From the IMG/VR virus record IMGVR_UViG_3300025030_002198, positions 1 to 23,709 of that record: a stretch of 23,709 nucleotides of DNA. One strand, 5' to 3'. Both the position numbers and the translations under genes were made by a program. Below, piece after piece: positions 6,909-22,194 of the stretch; position 1 is the stretch's first letter, and every line of letters begins with the position of its first letter. This DNA comes from a virus. A model generated the notes under the pieces. That model saw nothing but the letters and a program-made list of their open reading frames with translations, ran no database searches and was not told where the DNA came from.

Positions 6909-9686
6909 ATGAAATTACAAGATTTTCTATCAAATAATGTTACAACTAATACACAGATAACTACTTATCAAAGTGGGTTTTTGGAATTTTTAAAGTCTTC
7001 AGAAAAAACTTCTACTAAATATAAGCCATTAGGAATGGAGCAGTTGTACTTTGACTGGTTAAGAACAGCATATTCGTATAGAAGGATGTTTATTCAGGAT
7101 TTATATTTATTAGCTTTTGATATAACTGAAGTAAGAACAGCTTTATTACATCTTAAAAATGAAATATTTAGGAAAGGCTTTGATGAGTGGATTCCAAAAT
7201 TTGTTGCTAAATGCCCAAAATGTGCTATTGAATATCAAGAACCCACAGAATTTTGTCCAGATTGTTTTAAAACTGAAGAGAAATTAGCTGGATATAATGT
7301 TGAAAAAGTATTAAACTCTGCAGGCGAATATGAGTTAAATAAAAAGCCATATTATGAAAAAGCTTATGTATTAGATGAAAAAGGCAACAAAGTTAGAGTA
7401 GAAACAATTTCTCCAGATTTATCACAAATAGACTATTTTGAAAAAGTAAAATATAATTGTAATGAGTTCGGAAAAACTATAGAAGATAATCTTCGTATGG
7501 TTGTAGATGATGTTAATATTTGTGTTGTTCCTGAAACTTTGATTTATAGAATGACACCTAAGCAAGGATATACACAAATTAAAAATATCCAAGTTGGTGA
7601 TAAAGTATATACTCATACTGGAAAAGTAAAAAAAGTACTTAAAGTATATACTAGGCAAATTAATGAAGAAATATTTAAGTTAACTTTAGATAATAGAGAG
7701 ATAATCAAGATTACTGGAAATCACCCTATTTATACAAAAAGAGGTTGGATTAGGGTGGATGAATTAACTAAAGAAGATATTCTGTATAAATTATCAGATG
7801 TTAAAAATTATACAAATAATTTAACTTCAGAAGAAAGAAAAGTTAGATGTTGGAAAGTTGGAGCTTTAAAAAGAAAAGGTATAAAAAGAGGAAAGTATAA
7901 TTATATAAGTCCTAGAAAAGGTTTAACTTGGGAACAATATTATGGCTTAGAAAAAGCAAAAATAATAAAAGAAAAAAATTCTTTAAGTCAAAGTGGAAAA
8001 CCACATGGATATAACTTTAGGAAAAAAATAGGAAATTTTAAAGGTTTAAATAATCCTAATTGGAATGGTGGAATAGCTCGATTGCCATATACTTTTGAAT
8101 TTAATAATGATTTAAAATATCAAATATTTAAGAGAGACAATTTTACTTGTCAAATATGCAAAAAATATTCCATAAATTGTTCTGCACACCATATCGATTA
8201 TGACAAGACAAATTCTGTTGAGAAAAACTTAATTTCTTTATGTAAAAGTTGTCATATGAAAACTGGATACAGAAGAGAATTTTGGAAAGAGTTTTTGACA
8301 AATATTATTAGTGAGAAGTATGTTTCTGTGCATAATGGTTCTCGTATTATTGAAATAAAGAAAGAATGTTATGAAGGTATTGTATACAACTTAGAGATTG
8401 AAGATGATAATTCATATGTTGGTAAGGGTATTATTTATCATAATTGCGATGATGCTTTCTTACTATTAAATAAAACTTATAAATATGAGAACAATAAATT
8501 AAAGTATTCAAAAGTAGAAGAGATTAGAAGAATACATCCAGCGTTAATGGAAATAGAGTTGGACAAAGAGGGTCTTCCAAAAAATACTCATTGGATTTGT
8601 TATGAGCATAGGGGTCAGCCACGAACAGATCCCGGTTTATGCTTAGTAGATGAATGTGGCAAAGAGACTTTTCCTGTGATGTACATTTACAATCATAGGG
8701 GATCTAGATTGTATTATACTGAAGATGAAATAATTCATTTTAGTAGATTTTCCGAAAGTGACAGTTATGGGTACTCTCCCCTCTTAACTATTATGCAAAA
8801 AATATTGACTTTATCTGGAATGGACAGATTCTTGTATAGATACTTTTTTGAAAGAAAAACACCCACGGGCATTATATTAACATACACCGATGATCCAAAG
8901 TCATTAGATATAGCTAAAGATACTGTGGAATCTAAAATGATGGAAGATCCAACATATACTCCATGGGTGGCAGTTTCTACAAAAACTGGTAGGGGAAGAA
9001 CTGATTTTGTGCGGCTATTCCACACTTTACATGAAATGGATTATTTGCCAGTTAGAAATGAAATCCGAGACAGAGTGTCTTCTATTTATGGCGTTCCTCA
9101 AATGTATATGAATGTTATGGAGGGAGTGGGAGGTATAAGCGGACAAACACAACAATTAAGATTATTTTCAATCACTATAGAAGACTACCAAAGAATTATA
9201 AATGAAAAGGTGCTTCCCAAAATACTTAAAGCTTTTGGTATTACTGATTGGGAAATTAAACTTAGAACACCAGAGGAAAAAACTGAGCAAGCACAATTGC
9301 AAGTTTCGCAACAAAAAATACAATTAGCGAATGCTTTATTCCAGATGGGATTTGATATCAAATTGCAAAAAGGAAAAGGAAGAAATCTGTTTGATATTGA
9401 TTTTTCTGTTAGTGGAGAAGCTAAACGTCTTGACATGGGCGGTGGATTACCTATGCAGAAACCCGGCGGTAAAGATTTAGCTTTACCTGGTGAAAAAGAA
9501 GACAAAGTTGATGAAGAGAAAAAATCTCCTGATGAAGTTGAAAAGCTATTAGCTGAGTTTAAAAAGCCAAGAAAAAATACAAGAGAAGAGGATGCATTTA
9601 ATGAAGTAGAGTCTAAATCATTAGATTCTCAAGAAGATTCTGATAAATCTAAACAAGAGAACATGGTATGGAATGAGCATAAATAA
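6909..9686 (+). CDS. Portal protein, interrupted by an intein
   Basis: 925-aa precursor; removing the 308-aa intein (residues 205-512) leaves a 617-aa portal. Typical portal features lie in the C-extein: D-E-I-I-H-F, then SESDSYGYSPLL, then a long helix with FERKTPTGIILTY, and IRDRVSSIYGVPQMYM, which matches the SPP1/HK97-type portal core and the late helix leading to the stem and crown. Residues 102-119 hold a CPKC-x10-CPDC zinc ribbon. A second possible site is C564-x2-H567 with C578 and C583. The C-terminal ~100 residues are Lys/Glu-rich and probably disordered. The portal forms the dodecameric DNA gate of the capsid. The ATG is preceded by AGGG. It is the last clear virion gene before the sigma/replication region. 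Confidence 0.85.
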   Translation: MKLQDFLSNNVTTNTQITTYQSGFLEFLKSSEKTSTKYKPLGMEQLYFDWLRTAYSYRRMFIQDLYLLAFDITEVRTALLHLKNEIFRKGFDEWIPKFVAKCPKCAIEYQEPTEFCPDCFKTEEKLAGYNVEKVLNSAGEYELNKKPYYEKAYVLDEKGNKVRVETISPDLSQIDYFEKVKYNCNEFGKTIEDNLRMVVDDVNICVVPETLIYRMTPKQGYTQIKNIQVGDKVYTHTGKVKKVLKVYTRQINEEIFKLTLDNREIIKITGNHPIYTKRGWIRVDELTKEDILYKLSDVKNYTNNLTSEERKVRCWKVGALKRKGIKRGKYNYISPRKGLTWEQYYGLEKAKIIKEKNSLSQSGKPHGYNFRKKIGNFKGLNNPNWNGGIARLPYTFEFNNDLKYQIFKRDNFTCQICKKYSINCSAHHIDYDKTNSVEKNLISLCKSCHMKTGYRREFWKEFLTNIISEKYVSVHNGSRIIEIKKECYEGIVYNLEIEDDNSYVGKGIIYHNCDDAFLLLNKTYKYENNKLKYSKVEEIRRIHPALMEIELDKEGLPKNTHWICYEHRGQPRTDPGLCLVDECGKETFPVMYIYNHRGSRLYYTEDEIIHFSRFSESDSYGYSPLLTIMQKILTLSGMDRFLYRYFFERKTPTGIILTYTDDPKSLDIAKDTVESKMMEDPTYTPWVAVSTKTGRGRTDFVRLFHTLHEMDYLPVRNEIRDRVSSIYGVPQMYMNVMEGVGGISGQTQQLRLFSITIEDYQRIINEKVLPKILKAFGITDWEIKLRTPEEKTEQAQLQVSQQKIQLANALFQMGFDIKLQKGKGRNLFDIDFSVSGEAKRLDMGGGLPMQKPGGKDLALPGEKEDKVDEEKKSPDEVEKLLAEFKKPRKNTREEDAFNEVESKSLDSQEDSDKSKQENMVWNEHK
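7521..8444 (+). other. Intein with HNH homing endonuclease inside the portal gene
   Basis: The in-frame insertion begins at Cys205 (CVVPETLIYRM, block A) and continues with the G-D-K-V-Y-T block and ITGNHPIYTKRGWIRVDEL (block B, with the expected His). It ends with block F/G: YEGIVYNLEIEDDNSYV then GKGIIYHN, followed by Cys513 as the +1 nucleophile. The terminal His-Asn and Cys+1 are those needed for class 1 protein splicing. Between the splicing blocks lie a NUMOD3-like segment (KGLTWEQYYGLEKAK, GLNNPNWNGG) and an HNH nuclease (FKRDNFTCQICKK, SAHHIDYDK, NLISLCKSCH), all catalytic residues present. The segment is more AT-rich (about 25-27% GC in sampled lines) than the flanking C-extein, consistent with a mobile origin. 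All signs point to an active intein. Confidence 0.9.
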
Positions 9687-12417: not shown

Positions 12418-12593
12418 TGAAAATAGTTATATTAACTTGGAAGGAATTATATAAACTAGAAAATCTAATTAGACAAATGAAATTAGAACAAAGTTCTCCT
12501 GAAAGGTCATTTGAAGGTTTCTGTAAAGATGAACAATCTGGATACATAGAATACGGTCAAAATACTATAAAAATTGGAATTACTGAAGACTAG
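12417..12593 (+). CDS. 58-aa hypothetical protein ending inside a tRNA gene
   Basis: The ATG at 12417 shares a base with the helicase stop codon (TAATG), a classic termination-reinitiation overlap, and GGAAG lies 10 bases upstream. The peptide starts MKIVILTWKELYKL, has a helical stretch E-N-L-I-R-Q-M-K-L-E-Q and ends in GYIEYGQNTIKIGITED. The family is unknown. Its last codons and TAG stop lie within the acceptor stem of the tRNA-Pro gene (12590-12664), so the two genes share bases 12590-12593. The coupled start and coding-like amino-acid composition support it as real. Confidence 0.65.
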   Translation: MKIVILTWKELYKLENLIRQMKLEQSSPERSFEGFCKDEQSGYIEYGQNTIKIGITED

Positions 12594-12664
12594 GTATAGC
12601 TCAGTTTGGTAGAGCGCTTGGCCTGGGACCAAGAGGTTCGATAGTTCAAATCTATCTACCTAGA
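12590..12664 (+). tRNA. tRNA-Pro (anticodon UGG), with C33
   Basis: Full cloverleaf by hand: 7-bp acceptor CTAGGTA/TACCTAG; D arm GCTC/GAGC with a 9-base loop containing GG; anticodon stem CTTGG/CCAAG with loop CCTGGGA, giving anticodon TGG at 12624-12626; variable loop of 6; T arm GATAG/CTATC with loop TTCAAAT; discriminator A. The 3' CCA is not encoded. The TGG anticodon with G37 is standard for proline. Position 33, normally U in almost all tRNAs, is C here. The gene lies between helicase and primase genes and overlaps the end of the 58-aa gene by 4 bases. Confidence 0.9.
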
Positions 12665-12679
12665 CATAAGACAAAATAA

Positions 12680-14465: not shown

Positions 14466-14476
14466 AAGGAGGTGAT
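14466..14476 (+). promoter_or_regulatory. Near-perfect Shine-Dalgarno site (AAGGAGGTGAT)
   Basis: An 11-base match to the complement of the 16S rRNA 3' end, the longest in the window. It lies directly after the SSB stop codon and 10 bases (from the GGAGG end) before the ATG of a 20-codon frame. Such a complete match is notable for so short a gene. Confidence 0.7.
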
Positions 14477-14482
14477 AAATAA

Positions 14483-14545
14483 ATGGGAAAAATGCCTAAG
14501 AAGGGAGTTCCTGAGAAGGAGTCCAAAGTTAAGAGAGTAAAGTAG
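14483..14545 (+). CDS. 20-aa strongly basic micro-peptide
   Basis: ATG at 14483 and TAG at 14543-14545. The peptide (MGKMPKKGVPEKESKV then a K-R-V-K end) has about eight Lys/Arg and three Glu residues, with no hydrophobic core. It is preceded by the full Shine-Dalgarno sequence AAGGAGGTGAT, so strong translation is predicted. A second ATG at codon 4 is possible. A nucleic-acid-binding or ribosome-interacting peptide is plausible, or the frame could be a leader for the downstream region; neither is shown. It lies between SSB and a 147-base non-coding stretch with RNA-like secondary structure. Confidence 0.55.
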   Translation: MGKMPKKGVPEKESKVKRVK

Positions 14546-15135: not shown

Positions 15136-15453
15136 ATGGCGAAGGTAAGCGTAGATTTGGGATTAACTTTAAAATTACCAAAGGGTGATAATTTTGAATT
15201 TATACGACCCGCAGTGTCAGTGCAAGAAGTAGATGTTAGTAATGTAGACAAGGAACTTGAACTAGTAAGAAAAGCTTTACCAAAAGTTTGGGATGAAGCT
15301 TCGACACAACTGGAAACATTGTTAGAAAAGGAATTTACTGATTTAGACGTAGAGAAAAAGAAATCGCTAGTAGAAGTAGTAAAAGTGCTTAGAAATGAAG
15401 TAAAAATACTAAAAGAAGCTGTGTTAGCCATAGAAAAGAAAAGCAATAAATGA
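15136..15453 (+). CDS. Hypothetical coiled-coil protein
   Basis: 105 aa with AAGGAG 7 bases before the ATG. The first 35 residues are beta-like (KVSVDLGLTLKLPKGDNFEFIRPAVSVQEVDV). The rest is helical with heptads rich in Leu, Glu and Lys (KELELVRKALPKVWDEASTQ, VVKVLRNEVKILKEAVLAI), a likely coiled coil. Small proteins starting with a similar KVSV-x-x-G strand pattern are frequent in phage replication clusters, but I know no function. It overlaps the next gene by 4 bases (ATGA), so it is translationally coupled to the Rossmann-fold gene. Confidence 0.7.
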   Translation: MAKVSVDLGLTLKLPKGDNFEFIRPAVSVQEVDVSNVDKELELVRKALPKVWDEASTQLETLLEKEFTDLDVEKKKSLVEVVKVLRNEVKILKEAVLAIEKKSNK

Positions 15454-16211
15454 AGTTGAAAGTAGCTATTTTAGGATCTGGGCCCTCAGGTTTAATGGCT
15501 TATTGGGCATGTTTGAACAGGGGTGTATATCCTCAAATTATCTCTGATAATATTAAAGTGCCCATTGTAGAAGGATTTCATTATTTGCATGAATCATGTG
15601 GACTACCTTTAAAACCCAGCTCATTGCTTCACCAAATTATTCCGAATAATTGTGATTTAAAAGTTGCTAGTGAAAACTATAGTCAAAAAGTCTATGACAA
15701 CACACAGATGAAGAACAATGTTCGATGTGGTTACCAGGAGATTTATAATCTTCGCGAAGCAATTAATTTTTTATATAATATAGCTAAAGGTCAAATGTTG
15801 AACTTAAGAATTACTAGTATTGCTGATGTTAACTCTTTATCTACCAAGTATGATTTAGTATTTTCAAGTATCCCATTTAATTTTTTCTTTCCTGGAAATT
15901 GCTGTTTTAGGATTAGTTTTATTAAACATTATCATGATCTTGCTAACCTTAATTTCTGTTTCTATGATACTTTGCCTGATAGTGTGTATCTTAGATTTGG
16001 CACAGTATTTAATAGTGCATTTATCGAAGCAAAAACACAAATTGATGCTGACTACAAAGCTACTATAAAAGTTACTACTACTAATGTCATTGGCGGAGGA
16101 TTCAATGAGAATGTTATAAGAATAGGACGTTTTGGTGCATGGGATAAGAAAGAGAGAATTGATACTACTTATCATAAAGTTATAAAGGTGCTTGATGGAA
16201 GAACTGTATAA
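15450..16211 (+). CDS. Rossmann-fold FAD/NAD-binding protein, ThyX-cluster type
   Basis: 253 aa with an N-terminal VAILGSGPSGLMAYWAC, a G-x-G-x-x-G dinucleotide-binding loop of the FAD-dependent oxidoreductase superfamily. After it come VEGFHYLHESCGLPL and the tract EIYNLREAINFLYN. RFGAWDKKERIDTTYHKV near the C-terminus resembles a conserved block of similar short oxidoreductase-like proteins in other phage nucleotide clusters. It is shorter than full monooxygenases (~400 aa) and lacks a visible second dinucleotide site. It overlaps the next gene by 17 bases and lies two genes before the ThyX-like enzyme, so a flavin-linked role beside ThyX is plausible but unproven. Confidence 0.65.
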   Translation: MKLKVAILGSGPSGLMAYWACLNRGVYPQIISDNIKVPIVEGFHYLHESCGLPLKPSSLLHQIIPNNCDLKVASENYSQKVYDNTQMKNNVRCGYQEIYNLREAINFLYNIAKGQMLNLRITSIADVNSLSTKYDLVFSSIPFNFFFPGNCCFRISFIKHYHDLANLNFCFYDTLPDSVYLRFGTVFNSAFIEAKTQIDADYKATIKVTTTNVIGGGFNENVIRIGRFGAWDKKERIDTTYHKVIKVLDGRTV

Positions 16212-17046
16212 TATACAAAAAAGATTTACTGATAAAATATTAGTTGATTATGGTGTAAAACATCCTATTACTTATGCTGATAAAGTTAGGCTCACAAAAG
16301 AATATATCTTGTCTTTACATAGTGAATGTGATGAAGTATTAGAACAACTAAATTGGAAAAGCCATAGAGCTGAAAATAAAGAGTTGAACATAGACAATGT
16401 TTACACAGAGCTTATAGATGTTCAGAAATATTTGTGGGGATTAATGTATATCTGGGGAATGGATGTAGAAGTAATATCAAAAATATTTACTTTGAAATCT
16501 TTGGAGGTAGAAAGAAGATGGATTCAAGATAAAGAACTTTCTAATAATAAGGATAATATTTGCTTAATTGATATCGATGGCGTATTAAACAATTATCCAG
16601 TATGCTTTTATGACTGGGTGCTATCTACATATAATAAAGAATATAGCGAATATATTAATAATCCTGTAGAATATGAACGCTATAAACATTTATATAGATC
16701 TAGCGACGCAAAATCTAAACTTCAAGTAATACCCTCATCTATTGAAGCATTAGATAAACTTAAACTTAAAAAGTATAAAATAATATTATTTACAAATAGG
16801 CCCTTTTCGAAATACTTTTTAATGTATTCTTATACATTACAATGGTTATCAGATAATAGTATTCCCTATGATTATTTGCTTTCATCAGAGAATCGAAAAA
16901 TAATTGATTGCAAGGGGATAAATAATATAAAATTTATTATTGATGACAATAAAGATACTTGTAGTGATTTTAAGGCATTGGGAATAAAGGCGTATCAATT
17001 TGGAGTAGATATAAGGAATATTAAAGAAATTGAGGAATTGAAGTGA
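16195..17046 (+). CDS. All-alpha NTP pyrophosphatase (dUTPase/MazG type) fused to HAD phosphatase
   Basis: 283 aa from ATG 16195, with AAAGGTG just upstream; a TTG one codon earlier is less likely. Residues ~35-110 have the all-alpha NTP-PPase pattern E44-C-D-E47 ... E72-L-I-D75 with a NWKSHR element typical of dimeric dUTPase/MazG-like proteins, which cut (d)NTP to (d)NMP plus pyrophosphate. Residues ~121-283 form a HAD phosphatase: D126-I-D128-G-V, then ILFTNRP (motif II Thr), and FIIDDN (motif IV), as in 5'(3')-deoxyribonucleotidases. The two-domain order suggests dNTP to dNMP to nucleoside in one chain. It overlaps both neighbours, between the Rossmann protein and ThyX-like gene. Confidence 0.75.
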   Translation: MEELYNIQKRFTDKILVDYGVKHPITYADKVRLTKEYILSLHSECDEVLEQLNWKSHRAENKELNIDNVYTELIDVQKYLWGLMYIWGMDVEVISKIFTLKSLEVERRWIQDKELSNNKDNICLIDIDGVLNNYPVCFYDWVLSTYNKEYSEYINNPVEYERYKHLYRSSDAKSKLQVIPSSIEALDKLKLKKYKIILFTNRPFSKYFLMYSYTLQWLSDNSIPYDYLLSSENRKIIDCKGINNIKFIIDDNKDTCSDFKALGIKAYQFGVDIRNIKEIEELK

Positions 17047-17999
17047 ATAGCATAGGTGAATTAAGAAAAATAATGGGAACAAATCCCAAAGAAAACGTAG
17101 AACTTAAAACTGAATTCTATGAGGGTGTAAAAGGAATTTCAGTAAAACTAATGGATTATAACATTAACCCATATAAAGCGATGTATAATATGGCAACTTC
17201 AACATGGGGAAATACTATAGATAAATGGCATGAAACTTCTTTAGAAGGCAAATTCCAGGTAATAAAAGCAATATTAGAATTTAAAGCTTTGCCTAACGCA
17301 ATGGAAGAACCCACATTTTGTTTTGCAATAGAAAAATGTTCTAGATCAGCGTTTGACCAAATAGCGAGAGCTAGAATAGGGGCAGTATTTTCGAGTCAGG
17401 GTTGGCGCGACAATGATCATTCTGACATAGGATTTAGAGTGCCACAGTCAATTTGGGATGATGCGCAATCTCTTGATAATTTTAAGATATCTTGCAATAT
17501 GGCAAAAAAGGAATACCATAGATTAATTTCTGAGGGACAATCAAATTGGCAAGATGCAAGAGCTCTACTCCCTATTTCTGCTTGTCATAATTTTTCAATG
17601 TCTATGAATTATATGGCTTTAAGAAATTTTTGTAATAAAAGATTGAAAAATTGCGAACAAGCAGATACCGTAGCAGTGGCATGGTTAATTAGAGAAGAAG
17701 TGCATAAAGTATTTCCTTTATTGGGTAGTTATCTAAGACCCTCATGTGACTGGAAAAGAATCTGTGAATATCATCAGAATTATGCTTTATCAGAAGCTTT
17801 TGGTTGTCTATTTAGGAGTTGCGGTAGAAATAAAGATTTGAATCAAGATAATTATGCTTCTTTTAATTATTCTTGTTCTAATAAGGACACGATTGCAAAA
17901 CAATTAGGAATTACAATTCCTAATGCTGACGAGTATCTTCCTATTAGTAATGTAGAGTATTTATCTAAAAATGATTTTGGATTATTCAATGCTGATTAA
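17043..17999 (+). CDS. thyX: ThyX-family flavin-dependent thymidylate synthase, divergent
   Basis: 318 aa, started at GTG 17043 overlapping the previous stop (GTGA). The C-terminal half has ARALLPISACHNFSMSMNYMALRNFCNKRL followed by Q-A-D-T-V-A-V-A-W-L-I-R-E-E-V-H-K-V-F-P, the order of ThyX helices that bind dUMP and folate. The family signature RHRxxSxNxxSxRY is replaced by RARIGAVFSSQGWRDN at residues ~109-124; the two Arg residues are kept but His, Ser, Asn and Arg-Tyr are not. Canonical ThyX makes dTMP from dUMP using FAD, NADPH and methylene-THF. Here the altered signature could mean an atypical ThyX or a different flavin-dependent pyrimidine-C5 enzyme. Family assignment is good; the exact reaction is not certain. 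Confidence 0.75.
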   Translation: MNSIGELRKIMGTNPKENVELKTEFYEGVKGISVKLMDYNINPYKAMYNMATSTWGNTIDKWHETSLEGKFQVIKAILEFKALPNAMEEPTFCFAIEKCSRSAFDQIARARIGAVFSSQGWRDNDHSDIGFRVPQSIWDDAQSLDNFKISCNMAKKEYHRLISEGQSNWQDARALLPISACHNFSMSMNYMALRNFCNKRLKNCEQADTVAVAWLIREEVHKVFPLLGSYLRPSCDWKRICEYHQNYALSEAFGCLFRSCGRNKDLNQDNYASFNYSCSNKDTIAKQLGITIPNADEYLPISNVEYLSKNDFGLFNAD

Positions 18000-20370
18000 G
18001 ACAAACAATGAATTTAACACACTATTAGAGGACATCAAATCGCAGCAATATATTGGATTTGATACTGAAACTACGGGATTATTTCCATTTTTAGGAGATA
18101 GGATTTGTGGTATTTCAATTTCATTTAAAGATAAGCGAGTATTTTATATACCCATTAAGAATATATATAATAGTCATGGGTTTTCTAACAATGCGGTCAA
18201 ACTATTATATGACATGATCATTTCAAATAATGTTACTATTATTGGGCATAATCTAAAATTTGATCTCGAGATGTTATATTTTGAAAACATTGATATTTTT
18301 AAATTTAAGATATATGACACTTTAATACTTGCGCGTCTTTGTTTAAAAGAGAAATTTAGATATGGACTAAAAGAAATTGCTAGTGAATTGATTGACGAAT
18401 CAGCGAAAAGCTCAGAAGACATACTTAAAAAATTGATGCGCAAGAGTAAAATTAAGTCATATGCACAAGTTCCAATAGATGATATGGTTACATATGCATC
18501 AAATGACGCATTATATACGCTAGAACTATTTAAACTTTTTCAAAAACAAATAGTTGATGAGAACTTACAAGCTATTTGTGAAATAGAACATAGATTATTA
18601 TTTACATTAATACAAATGGAATTATCGGGCGTAAAAATTGATAGAGAGTATGTTACTAAATGTCAAGTAATAGAAACAAAGAAATTAGATTTATTACAGA
18701 AAGAGATTTTTTCTTTTGCAAGAACTGAATTTAATATATTGAGCAATAAGCAGTTAAATGAAGTGATGCAGAGTTTAAAGTTCACTTCGCCTGTAATGGG
18801 AAAAAATTCATTTTCATGGAGTGAAGAAGTTTTAGCGCAATTACAGCATCCATTTGCTGATGCAATTTTGCGTTATCGCACACGTGCTAAACTTTTATCT
18901 ACATACATTGAGCCATTTCTTAATTATACAAGTGACACTAACGAATTTATTCATTGTAATTTTAGACAGTATGGAACTAGAACAGGGCGTCTTTCTTGTG
19001 TTGAACCAAACTTACAAAATATTCCTAGAATAGAAGAATTTCCCACTAGGAACGTTTCATTAATTACTAGTAGCGATAATATTAACAAGATGATAGATGA
19101 AAATGATATTAGCAGTATTCGTTCTGCGTTTATTCCATCAATAGGGAAATTATTTTTCTTTGATTATAGTCAAATGGAGTTACGAGTTGCAGCTGATTAT
19201 GCAAATGAAGACGTGATGATTGATGCATTTAATAAAGATATTGACGTACATAGCGCTATTGCACATGAGTTATTTAAGATGCCCGAAGACAAAGATTCAG
19301 CAGAATATAAGTATTTGCGTGATACAACTAAAAAAATAGATTTCGGTATATTATATGGTATTGGCCCGAAATTATTATCTACACAAATAAACAAAACGTA
19401 TGATGAAGCTAAAGCGTACTTAAATAAATTTTTTAAGCGCTTTAAGAGTTTAAAACAATTTATTGATAAAGTTGCAAAAACAGTTGAAACTAGAGGTTAT
19501 ATTTTTAATAAATTTGGTCGAAGATATCGAATTGATGCAGAACGTTCATATACGGGGATTAACTATTTAGTGCAAGGATCTTGCGCAGATATATTAAAAT
19601 CTGCAATGGTGAAAATTGCAGACTATTTAAAAGATAAGAAAACAAGAATGATTCTATCAATTCATGATGAGCTAGCATTTGATGTTGCAAACGATGAATA
19701 TTTCGAGGTTATTCCTAAAATAAAAGAAATAATGGAATTCTCTAGTGTACTTAACCGTGTGCCATTAAAAGTTGAAGTTGCGTATTCATCATTTAGTTGG
19801 GGTAAAAAAGCTGAATTTAATATTGACTTATATAATTTACATTGTCAACAATATAGTTGTTCAAACTGCAAATTATGCGAACTAAGTGTGAATATAGCAA
19901 ATTCTCAATTGGGTCATGGGAAATTAATTGGCTATGGTTTTGGAAAAGTCTTCTTTGTTGCGCAAAATCCATCTTATTATCGGCATAAAAATATTATCAC
20001 GCCCATTGATGACGTGGGTATCAGTCGCCAATTCATGAACATGCTATTTTCATTGGGTTTTAAGTCAAAATATTACTATACAAATTTAGTTAAGTGCAGC
20101 ACTAAAGATAATATTGTTCCTGATATTGAAACTATTAATGTTTGTGCAAATAATTGGCTACAAAAAGAACTTAAAATCGTACAACCTAAATTAATTGTTG
20201 CAATGGGAAAGCTATCAATAGATTTTTTCAATGGTAAATTAGGCGAATTTACTCACTATAATGATTGTGATGTATATTCGATATATCATCCGTCGTATAT
20301 TGCGCGAAACAATAATTTAAAGAAAGAATACATTGAGGAGTTAGAAAAAATTATAGGAGTTGCAAAATAA
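17971..20370 (+). CDS. DNA polymerase I (3'-5' exo plus polymerase) with C-terminal uracil-DNA glycosylase domain
   Basis: 799 aa from ATG 17971; ATG 17989 has a better GGA at 7 bases and is an equally likely start. Residues ~28-180 are the DnaQ-like proofreading exonuclease (FDTETTGL, IIGHNLKFDLEML, YASNDALYTLEL), acidic residues intact. Residues ~330-610 are the family A polymerase: motif A FFFDYSQMELRV, motif B KKIDFGILYGIG, motif C LSIHDELAFDV. Residues ~625-799 match Fe-S UDG: C630-x2-C633-x2-C636, VFFVAQNPSYYRH, then LVKC709-x15-C725, and IYHPSYIARN. There is no 5'-3' exonuclease domain. This is the phage replicative polymerase joined to a uracil-removing domain. It overlaps the ThyX-like gene by 29 or 11 bases. 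Confidence 0.88.
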   Translation: MILDYSMLIKTNNEFNTLLEDIKSQQYIGFDTETTGLFPFLGDRICGISISFKDKRVFYIPIKNIYNSHGFSNNAVKLLYDMIISNNVTIIGHNLKFDLEMLYFENIDIFKFKIYDTLILARLCLKEKFRYGLKEIASELIDESAKSSEDILKKLMRKSKIKSYAQVPIDDMVTYASNDALYTLELFKLFQKQIVDENLQAICEIEHRLLFTLIQMELSGVKIDREYVTKCQVIETKKLDLLQKEIFSFARTEFNILSNKQLNEVMQSLKFTSPVMGKNSFSWSEEVLAQLQHPFADAILRYRTRAKLLSTYIEPFLNYTSDTNEFIHCNFRQYGTRTGRLSCVEPNLQNIPRIEEFPTRNVSLITSSDNINKMIDENDISSIRSAFIPSIGKLFFFDYSQMELRVAADYANEDVMIDAFNKDIDVHSAIAHELFKMPEDKDSAEYKYLRDTTKKIDFGILYGIGPKLLSTQINKTYDEAKAYLNKFFKRFKSLKQFIDKVAKTVETRGYIFNKFGRRYRIDAERSYTGINYLVQGSCADILKSAMVKIADYLKDKKTRMILSIHDELAFDVANDEYFEVIPKIKEIMEFSSVLNRVPLKVEVAYSSFSWGKKAEFNIDLYNLHCQQYSCSNCKLCELSVNIANSQLGHGKLIGYGFGKVFFVAQNPSYYRHKNIITPIDDVGISRQFMNMLFSLGFKSKYYYTNLVKCSTKDNIVPDIETINVCANNWLQKELKIVQPKLIVAMGKLSIDFFNGKLGEFTHYNDCDVYSIYHPSYIARNNNLKKEYIEELEKIIGVAK

Positions 20371-20375
20371 AAATA

Positions 20376-20798
20376 TTGATTTTCGAGGGACTTGATTGCT
20401 CTGGAAAAAGTCCTGTGATTACTAGAATTCGAGAACTTCTGGGTAAATATAATTTTCATGATTTAGTAATTGATAGATTCATATGTTCATTGTATGTCTT
20501 TGATACATTTTTTAAGCGCGTGACACCAGAAAGAATGCGTGAAATTAAAGAAATGCAAGATAATTTTTCAAAATTGCCAATAGTAACAATTTTTCTAGAT
20601 ATTTCTCCTGAAATAGCATTTAAGCGTTGTCAAGTTAAGGAGACTTTTTTTAATTATTCAATTACAGATTTGACACAAATGCGCAACATATATTTTAAAG
20701 CATTTACAGAACTGGGTGTGCAAAATATCTTACATATAGATGCGAATAATAAAGATATTGACACTATCGCAAAAGAGATATTGGAGAAAATTAAATGA
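20376..20798 (+). CDS. Deoxynucleoside monophosphate kinase, P-loop
   Basis: 140 aa from TTG 20376, giving IFEGLDCSGKS (Walker A) at the N-terminus, LVIDRFICSLYVFDTFF (the D-R substrate and lid element of thymidylate kinase-like enzymes) and a VTIFLDISPEIAFKRC strand-helix followed by a short lid. It is shorter than cellular Tmk (~210 aa), a reduced phage type. An ATA codon at 20367, three codons earlier, would give K-I-L-I-F-E-G and sits 7 bases after AGGAG, so the true start may be that rare codon. It most likely phosphorylates dTMP or a related dNMP for the phage polymerase. It follows the polymerase immediately and overlaps the next gene (ATGA). Confidence 0.75.
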   Translation: MIFEGLDCSGKSPVITRIRELLGKYNFHDLVIDRFICSLYVFDTFFKRVTPERMREIKEMQDNFSKLPIVTIFLDISPEIAFKRCQVKETFFNYSITDLTQMRNIYFKAFTELGVQNILHIDANNKDIDTIAKEILEKIK

Positions 20799-21694
20799 CA
20801 ACTGTACTAGTTACGGGCGAAGATGGAATGTTAGCTAGAGAAGTCATAGCACAATTATCTCGAAATACACAGTATATACTACTAAACCAGTACATTCTTG
20901 AGCAACATAAAACATTTAAAACACAATACAATGAATATCCTGAACTTGATATACGCGATAATGAATTAGTGCAACATTATTTTACCAAATTAAAACCTGA
21001 TATTGTCACAAATACAGCTGCAATAGTAAATACAGATAAATGTGATGACGACAGAAACTTAAGTTTTTCTTGCAATGTTGTTGGTTCGCACAATATAATA
21101 AGCGCTTGTAAAAAATATCATACATTTCTAATTCATTTTGAAACAACTGCGATGCTTGATTGTCATCCAACTATAAAATTATATACTGAGACATCACAAA
21201 TAAATCCTAAAACTTATTATAGTTTAACTAAGTACTTATCTCATTTAGATTTATTGGGATATTTTAGATTAGATGATGTTTTACTGTTGCGTATATGCTT
21301 TGTATATGGTGCGCAAAGGGATACTAGTAGTAATATTTCAAAGATAATACATGCATCAGCGAATAGGGAAAAATGTGTAACACTAAATATTTCTAGTGAA
21401 TACAAAAAAGACTATTTATATATTAGTGATTTTGGGACAGCATTTATGAAATTACTAGAAAACAATTCGCGAGGAATTTATAACATTAGTTATGGTAATG
21501 CAATTAAATATTCAGAGATAATAAATTTATTGTTAAATAAATTAGAACATAAGCCGATTGTGATATACAATGAATTATCTGAGTATTTATATGACCATGT
21601 CTTAGCTAATATAAAACTAAAATCACTTGGCTGGAGACCAAGAATAACTTTGGATAAAGGATTATCACTAGCGATAAATAATATATTAAAATGA
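20795..21694 (+). CDS. NAD(P)-dependent extended SDR, RmlD-like reductase/epimerase
   Basis: 299 aa. VLVTGEDGMLAREV gives the T-G-x-x-G-x-L-A dinucleotide-binding loop; PDIVTNTAAIVNTDKC matches the N-x-A-A strand of dTDP-4-dehydrorhamnose reductase-like proteins; FSCNVVGSHNI is the N-x-x-G-x-x-N helix; Y142-S-L-T-K146 is the catalytic YxxxK. Late features (DYLYISDFGTAFMKLL, GIYNISYG) fit extended SDRs of the RmlD group. Such enzymes act on nucleotide sugars. It stands between a dNMP kinase and dCMP deaminase, with overlapping ATGA junctions on both sides, so it is co-translated with nucleotide genes. A role in sugar-nucleotide supply or DNA-base glycosylation is possible but there is no partner glycosyltransferase in view. 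Confidence 0.75.
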   Translation: MTTVLVTGEDGMLAREVIAQLSRNTQYILLNQYILEQHKTFKTQYNEYPELDIRDNELVQHYFTKLKPDIVTNTAAIVNTDKCDDDRNLSFSCNVVGSHNIISACKKYHTFLIHFETTAMLDCHPTIKLYTETSQINPKTYYSLTKYLSHLDLLGYFRLDDVLLLRICFVYGAQRDTSSNISKIIHASANREKCVTLNISSEYKKDYLYISDFGTAFMKLLENNSRGIYNISYGNAIKYSEIINLLLNKLEHKPIVIYNELSEYLYDHVLANIKLKSLGWRPRITLDKGLSLAINNILK

Positions 21695-22194
21695 AACAAA
21701 CTTTTAAGAAACAAACTTTTAATGCAAACATTTTTGAAATTATTCGTGTACTTTCTAAAAGAAGCACTTGTCTTAGACGCCAAATTAGTTCAGTAATAAC
21801 AAAAGAAAATAACATTATTTCTACGGGCTATAACGGCGCACCAAGTGGCTGTGTTCACTGTGTTGTTGTGGGTTGTCTAAGACAAAAACTAAATATTCCT
21901 TCGGGTGAACGTATGGAACTTTGTAGAGCAGGTCACGCTGAAGTGAATGCAATTGTGCAAGCAGCGAAACATGGTATATCTACGAATGGCGCAAGTATTT
22001 ATACTCAATCTATTCCCTGCGGATATTGCGCAAAAGCTATTATAAATTCTGGAATAACTGATGTATACTATTTAAAAGATGATTATCCAGATAAATTAGG
22101 AATTCAACTTATTGAAGAAAGCGGAAAGGTAACATTGCATCAAATAGTTCTAAAAGAAAAACTTAAAGAAGATTTTGAATATAGGTTGCCATAA
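21691..22194 (+). CDS. dCMP deaminase (ComEB-like)
   Basis: 167 aa. The CDA-family zinc site is intact: H82-A-E84-V-N-A and P109-C110-G-Y-C113. STGYNGAPSGCVHC is the substrate/ligand loop seen in dCMP deaminases, and extra Cys residues (C54, C57, C78) could bind the structural zinc common in phage and ComEB-type enzymes. It converts dCMP to dUMP, the substrate for a thymidylate synthase; the ThyX-like gene is encoded about 4 kb upstream in the same operon. Length and motif spacing are normal. It starts by ATGA overlap with the SDR gene. Confidence 0.88.
   Translation: MKQTFKKQTFNANIFEIIRVLSKRSTCLRRQISSVITKENNIISTGYNGAPSGCVHCVVVGCLRQKLNIPSGERMELCRAGHAEVNAIVQAAKHGISTNGASIYTQSIPCGYCAKAIINSGITDVYYLKDDYPDKLGIQLIEESGKVTLHQIVLKEKLKEDFEYRLP

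Follow-up and report, generated by a model that had tools for sequence, protein, structure and literature searches.

A family-A DNA polymerase with a uracil-DNA glycosylase-type domain at its C-terminus in a phage genome

Background

The joining of a uracil-DNA glycosylase (UDG) domain to a family-A DNA polymerase by phages is already known, and the order with the UDG at the N-terminus has been documented for phage PaBG and its group (PMC7412058). The locus described here raises the question whether such a domain can also stand at the opposite end of the chain and, if so, what it may do there. The locus lies in the IMG/VR virus record IMGVR_UViG_3300025030_002198, and positions 1 to 23,709 of that record, 23,709 nucleotides (nt) in all, are referred to below as the window. 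A preliminary description, made from the letters of the window, had read the gene at 17971-20370 on the plus strand as a DNA polymerase whose motifs A-C are followed, in one open frame, by a UDG, and had set this against phage polymerases with a UDG-like domain at the N-terminus. What is new here is the reversed order, the separate fusion and an altered motif A.

Results and Discussion

The C-terminal fusion is real

The C-terminal UDG fusion is real. The gene is a single unbroken frame of 2400 nt that starts with ATG and codes for 799 amino acids. Its polymerase motifs are complete, namely motif A, DYSQMELR, at residues 398-405, motif B, RDTTKKIDFGILYG, at 450-463, and motif C, HDE, at 565-567; the key residues of the family, D398, R450/K454/F458 and H565-D566-E567, are present, and the exonuclease carboxylate set, D31, E33, D98 and D179, is intact. 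By these motifs the protein is a predicted family-A DNA polymerase with 3'-5' proofreading, and it is of the Klenow type, having a proofreading exonuclease and a family-A polymerase without the 5' nuclease domain. Thus, the open frame, the Pfam matches and the intact motifs bear out the preliminary description on this point.

Two trivial explanations were considered. The first is an artefact of assembly or annotation, or a chimeric join, and this was ruled out because a fusion gene identical to the base is present in two other IMG/VR viral contigs (L001 and L002), one of which diverges from the window by 7% a few kilobases upstream. It is therefore unlikely that a single assembly produced a chimeric join. 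The three copies of the gene show no sequence divergence from each other. The second explanation, that two genes were read as one, is also unlikely because the inter-domain region holds no ATG. In codons 590-665 the only start-like codons are GTG or TTG at residues 597, 640 and 647, and there is thus no obvious sign that the UDG is encoded by a gene of its own.

The C-terminal domain belongs to the UDG superfamily

The Pfam UDG model matched residues 659-791 with an E-value (E) of 5.8e-15, with the domain alone reaching 60 bits where the cut-off is 24.3. With a UDG profile from which the window had been left out, the real domain scored 85 bits while the best of 5000 shuffles of its own sequence scored 6.9 bits. 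The nearest solved structures are the family-4 UDGs of Thermus, Sulfolobus and Thermotoga, with 1ui0 matching at E 5.9e-14. AlphaFold2, when given the domain with an alignment of 67 rows, returned a model with a predicted local distance difference test score (pLDDT) of 81.5 and a predicted template modelling score (pTM) of 0.81, and the top match of this model in the PDB by Foldseek was Thermus UDGa (1ui0; template modelling score (TM) 0.78, E 3.9e-13), followed by other family-4 UDGs and then by UdgX. By these matches the domain has the predicted alpha/beta/alpha fold of the UDG superfamily. The possibility that the C-terminal part is not a UDG is ruled out by these profile, fold and shuffle tests, among which are the profile comparison and the structure prediction that had been suggested as checks in the preliminary description. 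On the other hand, the score with the curated family-4 model TIGR00758 was 59.6 bits, well below the cut-off of 125.3, and we therefore do not class the domain with the family-4 UDGs but describe it as a divergent member of the UDG superfamily that is of the family-4 type.

The order is rare and the fusion is a separate one

The UDG domain matched 20 of 50,697 phage records, and in every polymerase-joined case that was examined the UDG was in front. When the best 80 UDG loci from viral contigs were taken together with this phage set, there were 32 distinct N-terminal UDG-polymerase fusions and 56 free UDGs, and the C-terminal fusion was confined to one species, the window's own virus. The best 80 relatives of the polymerase, with additional pattern matches in viral contigs, also held no C-terminal UDG outside the window's virus. 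No other C-terminal fusion was present among the matches listed, whether in phages by protein search, in viral contigs by UDG alignment, polymerase alignment and peptide and DNA patterns, or in genome contigs and plasmids; these searches speak for the matches listed, and a rare C-terminal fusion may exist elsewhere. In the literature, within a coverage that mostly leaves out subscription papers, no paper describing a UDG fused to the C-terminus of a polymerase came to light. Thus, the search for the same domain order in other phages led back only to the window's virus, and the contrast with N-terminal fusions drawn in the preliminary description is correct and stronger than was stated there, the N-terminal form being common and the window's fusion having arisen separately on the polymerase side.

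The N-terminal fusions of the Lupandier jumbo phages (e.g., gp205 of Pseudomonas phage PaBG), of the SPO1-like phages and of Pseudomonas phage PMBT14 likewise have a family-A exonuclease-polymerase and a family-4-like UDG on one chain (PMC7412058). However, in all 32 distinct cases the UDG is N-terminal and motif A is mostly canonical, whereas in the window the exonuclease begins at residue 9 and the UDG occupies residues 633-795. The closest relatives of the window's polymerase are those of seven viral contigs (L107-L113), which are 30-36% identical to it and have a similar G[IV]NYL[VI]QG stretch but, unlike it, carry no UDG at either end.

In the tree, the window's polymerase grouped with five of these UDG-less polymerases (L107-L111; support 98/93). 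The 12 N-fused polymerases that were sampled formed a clade of their own (support 100/99), and the approximately unbiased (AU) test rejected a grouping of the window's polymerase with these 12 (p 9.7e-6). Since its nearest relatives have no UDG and the N-fused grouping is rejected, the window's gene is, on the polymerase side of the tree, a fusion separate from the sampled N-fused clade and made at the opposite end of the chain. Descent from an N-fused polymerase of that clade, by loss of the UDG and gain of another at the other end, is likewise rejected by the AU test on the polymerase side. A wider, quick tree agreed for the main N-fused clade and put three more of the N-fused polymerases outside it, a hint that the N-terminal fusion, too, may have arisen more than once. 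The window's UDG itself was placed near N-fused UDGs of SPO1-like phages (L004 and L060); its end branch, however, is very long (3.25) and carries a warning of long-branch attraction.

The active site is altered while the uracil-binding residues are kept

The four predicted [4Fe-4S] ligands, C633, C636, C709 and C725, align with conserved cysteines. The preliminary description had taken C630-x2-C633 as the first pair; the conserved pair is C633-x2-C636, and C630 is an extra cysteine. The other elements that it had named, C709-x15-C725, AQNPSYYR (residues 664-671) and HPS (773-775), are as it gave them. By a residue census N705, H773 and R779 are kept together with the four cysteines. Motif A, by contrast with these, is changed: AQNPSYYRH replaces GE(A/G)PGxxED, so that Q665 stands at the position of the catalytic Glu and the ED pair is gone. 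This Glu is present in 53 of the 56 free UDGs and in 27 of the 32 N-fused UDGs (distinct aligned sequences). The base-stacking Phe of PFVG is also gone, the window reading TPIDDVG in a loop where alignment and model are both poor, and the KCRPPxNR stretch differs, its R residues having been lost.

Thermus thermophilus UDGa (1ui0) shares with the window's domain the fold, the four cysteines, TNxVKC and the HPSxxxR motif B, but at 23-25% identity it differs in having GE(A/G)PGxxED and the PFVG Phe, and the window's domain is joined to a polymerase. UdgX, a uracil-binding family-4 relative of family 7, resembles the window's domain in its family-4-like fold and altered motif A; however, its motif A is GEQPG and it has a KRRIH loop with a nucleophilic His, whereas the window has AQNPS and KCSTKDNIVPD and no KRRIH. 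In UdgX, Asn91 and His178 are the residues that bind uracil, and activation of the nucleophile falls to the Glu (PMC10359453). The mutants E52Q, E52N and E52A impair the reaction of His109, and in the water-using H109S background E52N lowers kcat/Km about 75-fold and does not abolish excision (PMC10359453). Because the Asn and His are retained and the Glu is lost, and because of these mutant data, we infer that uracil recognition would be kept in the window's domain and catalysis slowed or altered. Excision of uracil is plausible, though it would probably be slow or changed in character. The earlier suggestion that the domain may excise uracil is therefore weakened by Q665, by the loss of the ED pair and of the PFVG Phe, and by the 59.6 bits against 125.3, while recognition or slow excision is still plausible because the uracil-binding residues are kept.

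Some N-fused relatives are also altered in motif A. Four of them, all lying by ThyA-family or pyrimidine hydroxymethylase-type genes, have a degraded motif A, which reads DNPT, DNPN, DAPN and DTAS in L004, L007, L008 and L011, respectively. The SPO1-like N-fused polymerase (L011) has in addition lost cysteines and the His of motif B, as if its UDG were being disarmed. This polymerase, from Bacillus phage Goe26, is annotated as a UDG-exonuclease open reading frame and a polymerase open reading frame with another one between them (L011:5028-6845 and L011:7696-8622), perhaps on account of an intron like that of SPO1 gene 31.

The fusion gene sits among thymidylate genes

The features of the locus are given in Table 1. 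The fusion gene is followed downstream by a thymidylate-kinase-like gene, an epimerase, a dCMP deaminase and a MazG-like pyrophosphatase, and its neighbours on both sides place it in a predicted thymidylate operon. Several N-fused polymerases likewise adjoin dCMP deaminase and thymidylate-synthase-type genes. Because this setting recurs, it ties UDG-polymerase fusions to phages that, by their gene content, would run pyrimidine synthesis via deoxyuridine monophosphate (dUMP).

Table 1. Features of the fusion gene and of its neighbours in the window
Feature	Position	Strand	Basis
Polymerase-UDG fusion gene, order exonuclease-polymerase-UDG, 799 amino acids	17971..20370	+	Open reading frame; Pfam; identical in L001 and L002
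3'-5' exonuclease domain, residues 9-194	17995..18552	+	Pfam DNA_pol_A_exo1, E 1.7e-25; D31, E33, D98, D179 present
Family-A polymerase domain, residues 232-606	18664..19788	+	Pfam DNA_pol_A, E 7e-94; AlphaFold2 pLDDT mostly >90
Linker from polymerase to UDG domain, residues 611-632 (about 20 residues)	19801..19866	+	Domain boundaries
C-terminal UDG domain, residues 633-795	19867..20355	+	Pfam UDG; TIGR00758 alignment 633-795; AlphaFold2 and Foldseek
Predicted Fe-S (iron-sulphur) ligands C633-x2-C636	19867..19878	+	Cys in 56/56 aligned free UDGs and most N-fused
Altered motif A, VAQNPSYYRHK, residues 663-673	19957..19989	+	Aligned to [VI]GE[AG]PGxxED of other UDGs
TNLVKC, residues 704-709: predicted uracil-binding Asn705 and Fe-S ligand C709	20080..20097	+	Alignment; Asn role PMC10359453
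Predicted Fe-S ligand C725	20143..20145	+	Alignment
Motif B, YHPSYIAR, residues 772-779, canonical	20284..20307	+	Alignment
dUTPase/MazG-like N-terminal part and 5'-nucleotidase-like C-terminal part	16192..17046	+	Weak dUTPase match at residues 2-86; phrog_173 at 2-95; NT5C at 150-265
ThyX-like gene, end overlapping start of fusion gene by 29 nt	17043..17999	+	Pfam Thy1, E 7e-26
Thymidylate-kinase-like gene	20376..20798	+	Pfam Thymidylate_kin, E 5.6e-12
dCMP deaminase	21691..22194	+	phrog_174, E 4.5e-31; Pfam

Upstream, the gene at 16192-17046 seems to join two domains, a dUTPase/MazG-like all-alpha one and a 5'-nucleotidase (NT5C/PNK-phosphatase-like) one; the PF00692 dUTPase was searched for and was not found. 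The ThyX-like protein, whose nearest named relatives are the ThyX proteins of the Sulfolobus viruses STSV1/2 at about 30%, reads RAR in place of the RHR signature, with the His lost and extra residues inserted in the motif, so that its function may be altered. The gene at 15450-16211 was compared with the pyrimidine hydroxymethylase-type genes of L007 and L008, and no similarity to either was detected. Farther away, the portal protein gene (6909-9686) holds an in-frame intein, with a Hint splicing domain and an HNH endonuclease at about residues 204-512 and the portal matches after it, and a tRNA-Pro (TGG) lies at 12590-12665 between the helicase and primase genes. In the alignment with contig G002 the window has about 70 bases without a counterpart (14469-14538), lying between blocks of 99.0% and 99.7% identity; this would be a local replacement or an indel.

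What the tethered domain may do

We propose, with a probability of roughly 0.45, that the tethered domain is mainly a module for recognizing or holding uracil and not a fast glycosylase. A Klenow-type replicative polymerase of a phage would have gained a UDG-superfamily domain of the Fe-S type at its C-terminal end. The tethered domain would sample the DNA at the fork for deoxyuridine and flip and bind the base, the glycosidic bond of the bound deoxyuridine would be hydrolysed slowly or with altered specificity, and the uracil-bound domain would stall or retain the polymerase there. The dCMP deaminase, ThyX-like, thymidylate kinase and dUTPase-like genes would fit pyrimidine routing via dUMP and a need for uracil control in the phage DNA.

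Several points weigh against this proposal. In the AlphaFold2 model of the full chain the polymerase folded well (pLDDT mostly >90) and the UDG part was left unfolded, that alignment having no UDG rows; it was restricted to the polymerase because UDG rows, when included, were put in the wrong place, and this model is of no use for the UDG. The separate model of the UDG domain is least certain in its motif A loop (residues 68-74, pLDDT <50). AQNP keeps the invariant Pro, and Asn666 in front of it corresponds to the Asp/Asn of families 1-3 (GQDPY, GINPG; PMC10359453), and a mechanism like that of families 2 and 3 could leave the domain fully active.

An alternative is that the domain is an active UDG which excises uracil at the fork, its motif A having been reworked to the Asn type (QNP, as in MUG, TDG and SMUG1) or mixed with the family-1 GQDPY, so that uracil exclusion would be coupled to synthesis. 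The retention of N705, H773 and R779 and the thymidylate operon are consistent with this, as is the presence of the Glu in 27 of the 32 N-fused relatives, most of which have a fully canonical site, active glycosylases on polymerases being probably common. However, the family-4 Glu and ED pair, the PFVG Phe and the R residues of KCRPPxNR are lost, and the score is below the TIGR00758 cut-off. Moreover, excision in the template ahead of synthesis would yield abasic blocks, and no PF01261 apurinic/apyrimidinic endonuclease was found in the known parts of the phage genome. We consider an active glycosylase possible but doubtful. It is rather unlikely, though conceivable, that replacement of the catalytic Glu by a QNP motif A resembling GQDP/GINP has created an undescribed UDG-superfamily activity or mode of uracil sensing on the same chain as synthesis, gained apart from the N-terminal fusions.

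The domain could instead read a modified uracil such as 5-hydroxymethyluracil for copying DNA in which thymine is replaced, catalysis having been lost since the base must stay. The change of the motif A Glu to Asp in N-fused polymerases beside a ThyA-family synthase (L004, L007, L008 and L011), including that of a SPO1-like phage, points in this direction; two of these four have annotated pyrimidine hydroxymethylase-type genes or a homologue. The family-A polymerase of phage phiLo (9qhs), deposited with a modified template, holds a stretch matching the UDG fold, and the ThyX-like enzyme of the window lacks the His of RHR, which may alter its function. But within the available parts of the genome no dUMP hydroxymethylase or other base-modification gene was recognized, and L009 pairs modification genes with a canonical motif A; we regard such a reader as quite unlikely. 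A catalytically dead structural or DNA-binding appendage, serving processivity or Fe-S redox signalling, would fit the degenerate motif A and pocket, the very divergent domain (end branch 3.25) and the loss of even cysteines and His in L011, but it is very unlikely, the four cysteines, the uracil-binding Asn and the His and Arg of motif B being needless for a mere tether.

Conclusions

A uracil-recognizing domain has been joined to phage family-A polymerases on more than one occasion, now at the N-terminus and now at the C-terminus, and because of this the physical coupling of uracil handling and synthesis would itself appear to be selected. Since the two orders, and the canonical and altered sites, can be compared directly, the role of the domain, whether it is to excise uracil, to stall the polymerase or to read modified bases, can be tested with single proteins. 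Archaeal family-B polymerases stall at uracil, and a uracil sensor borne on a phage polymerase would be analogous to this in effect but not in origin.

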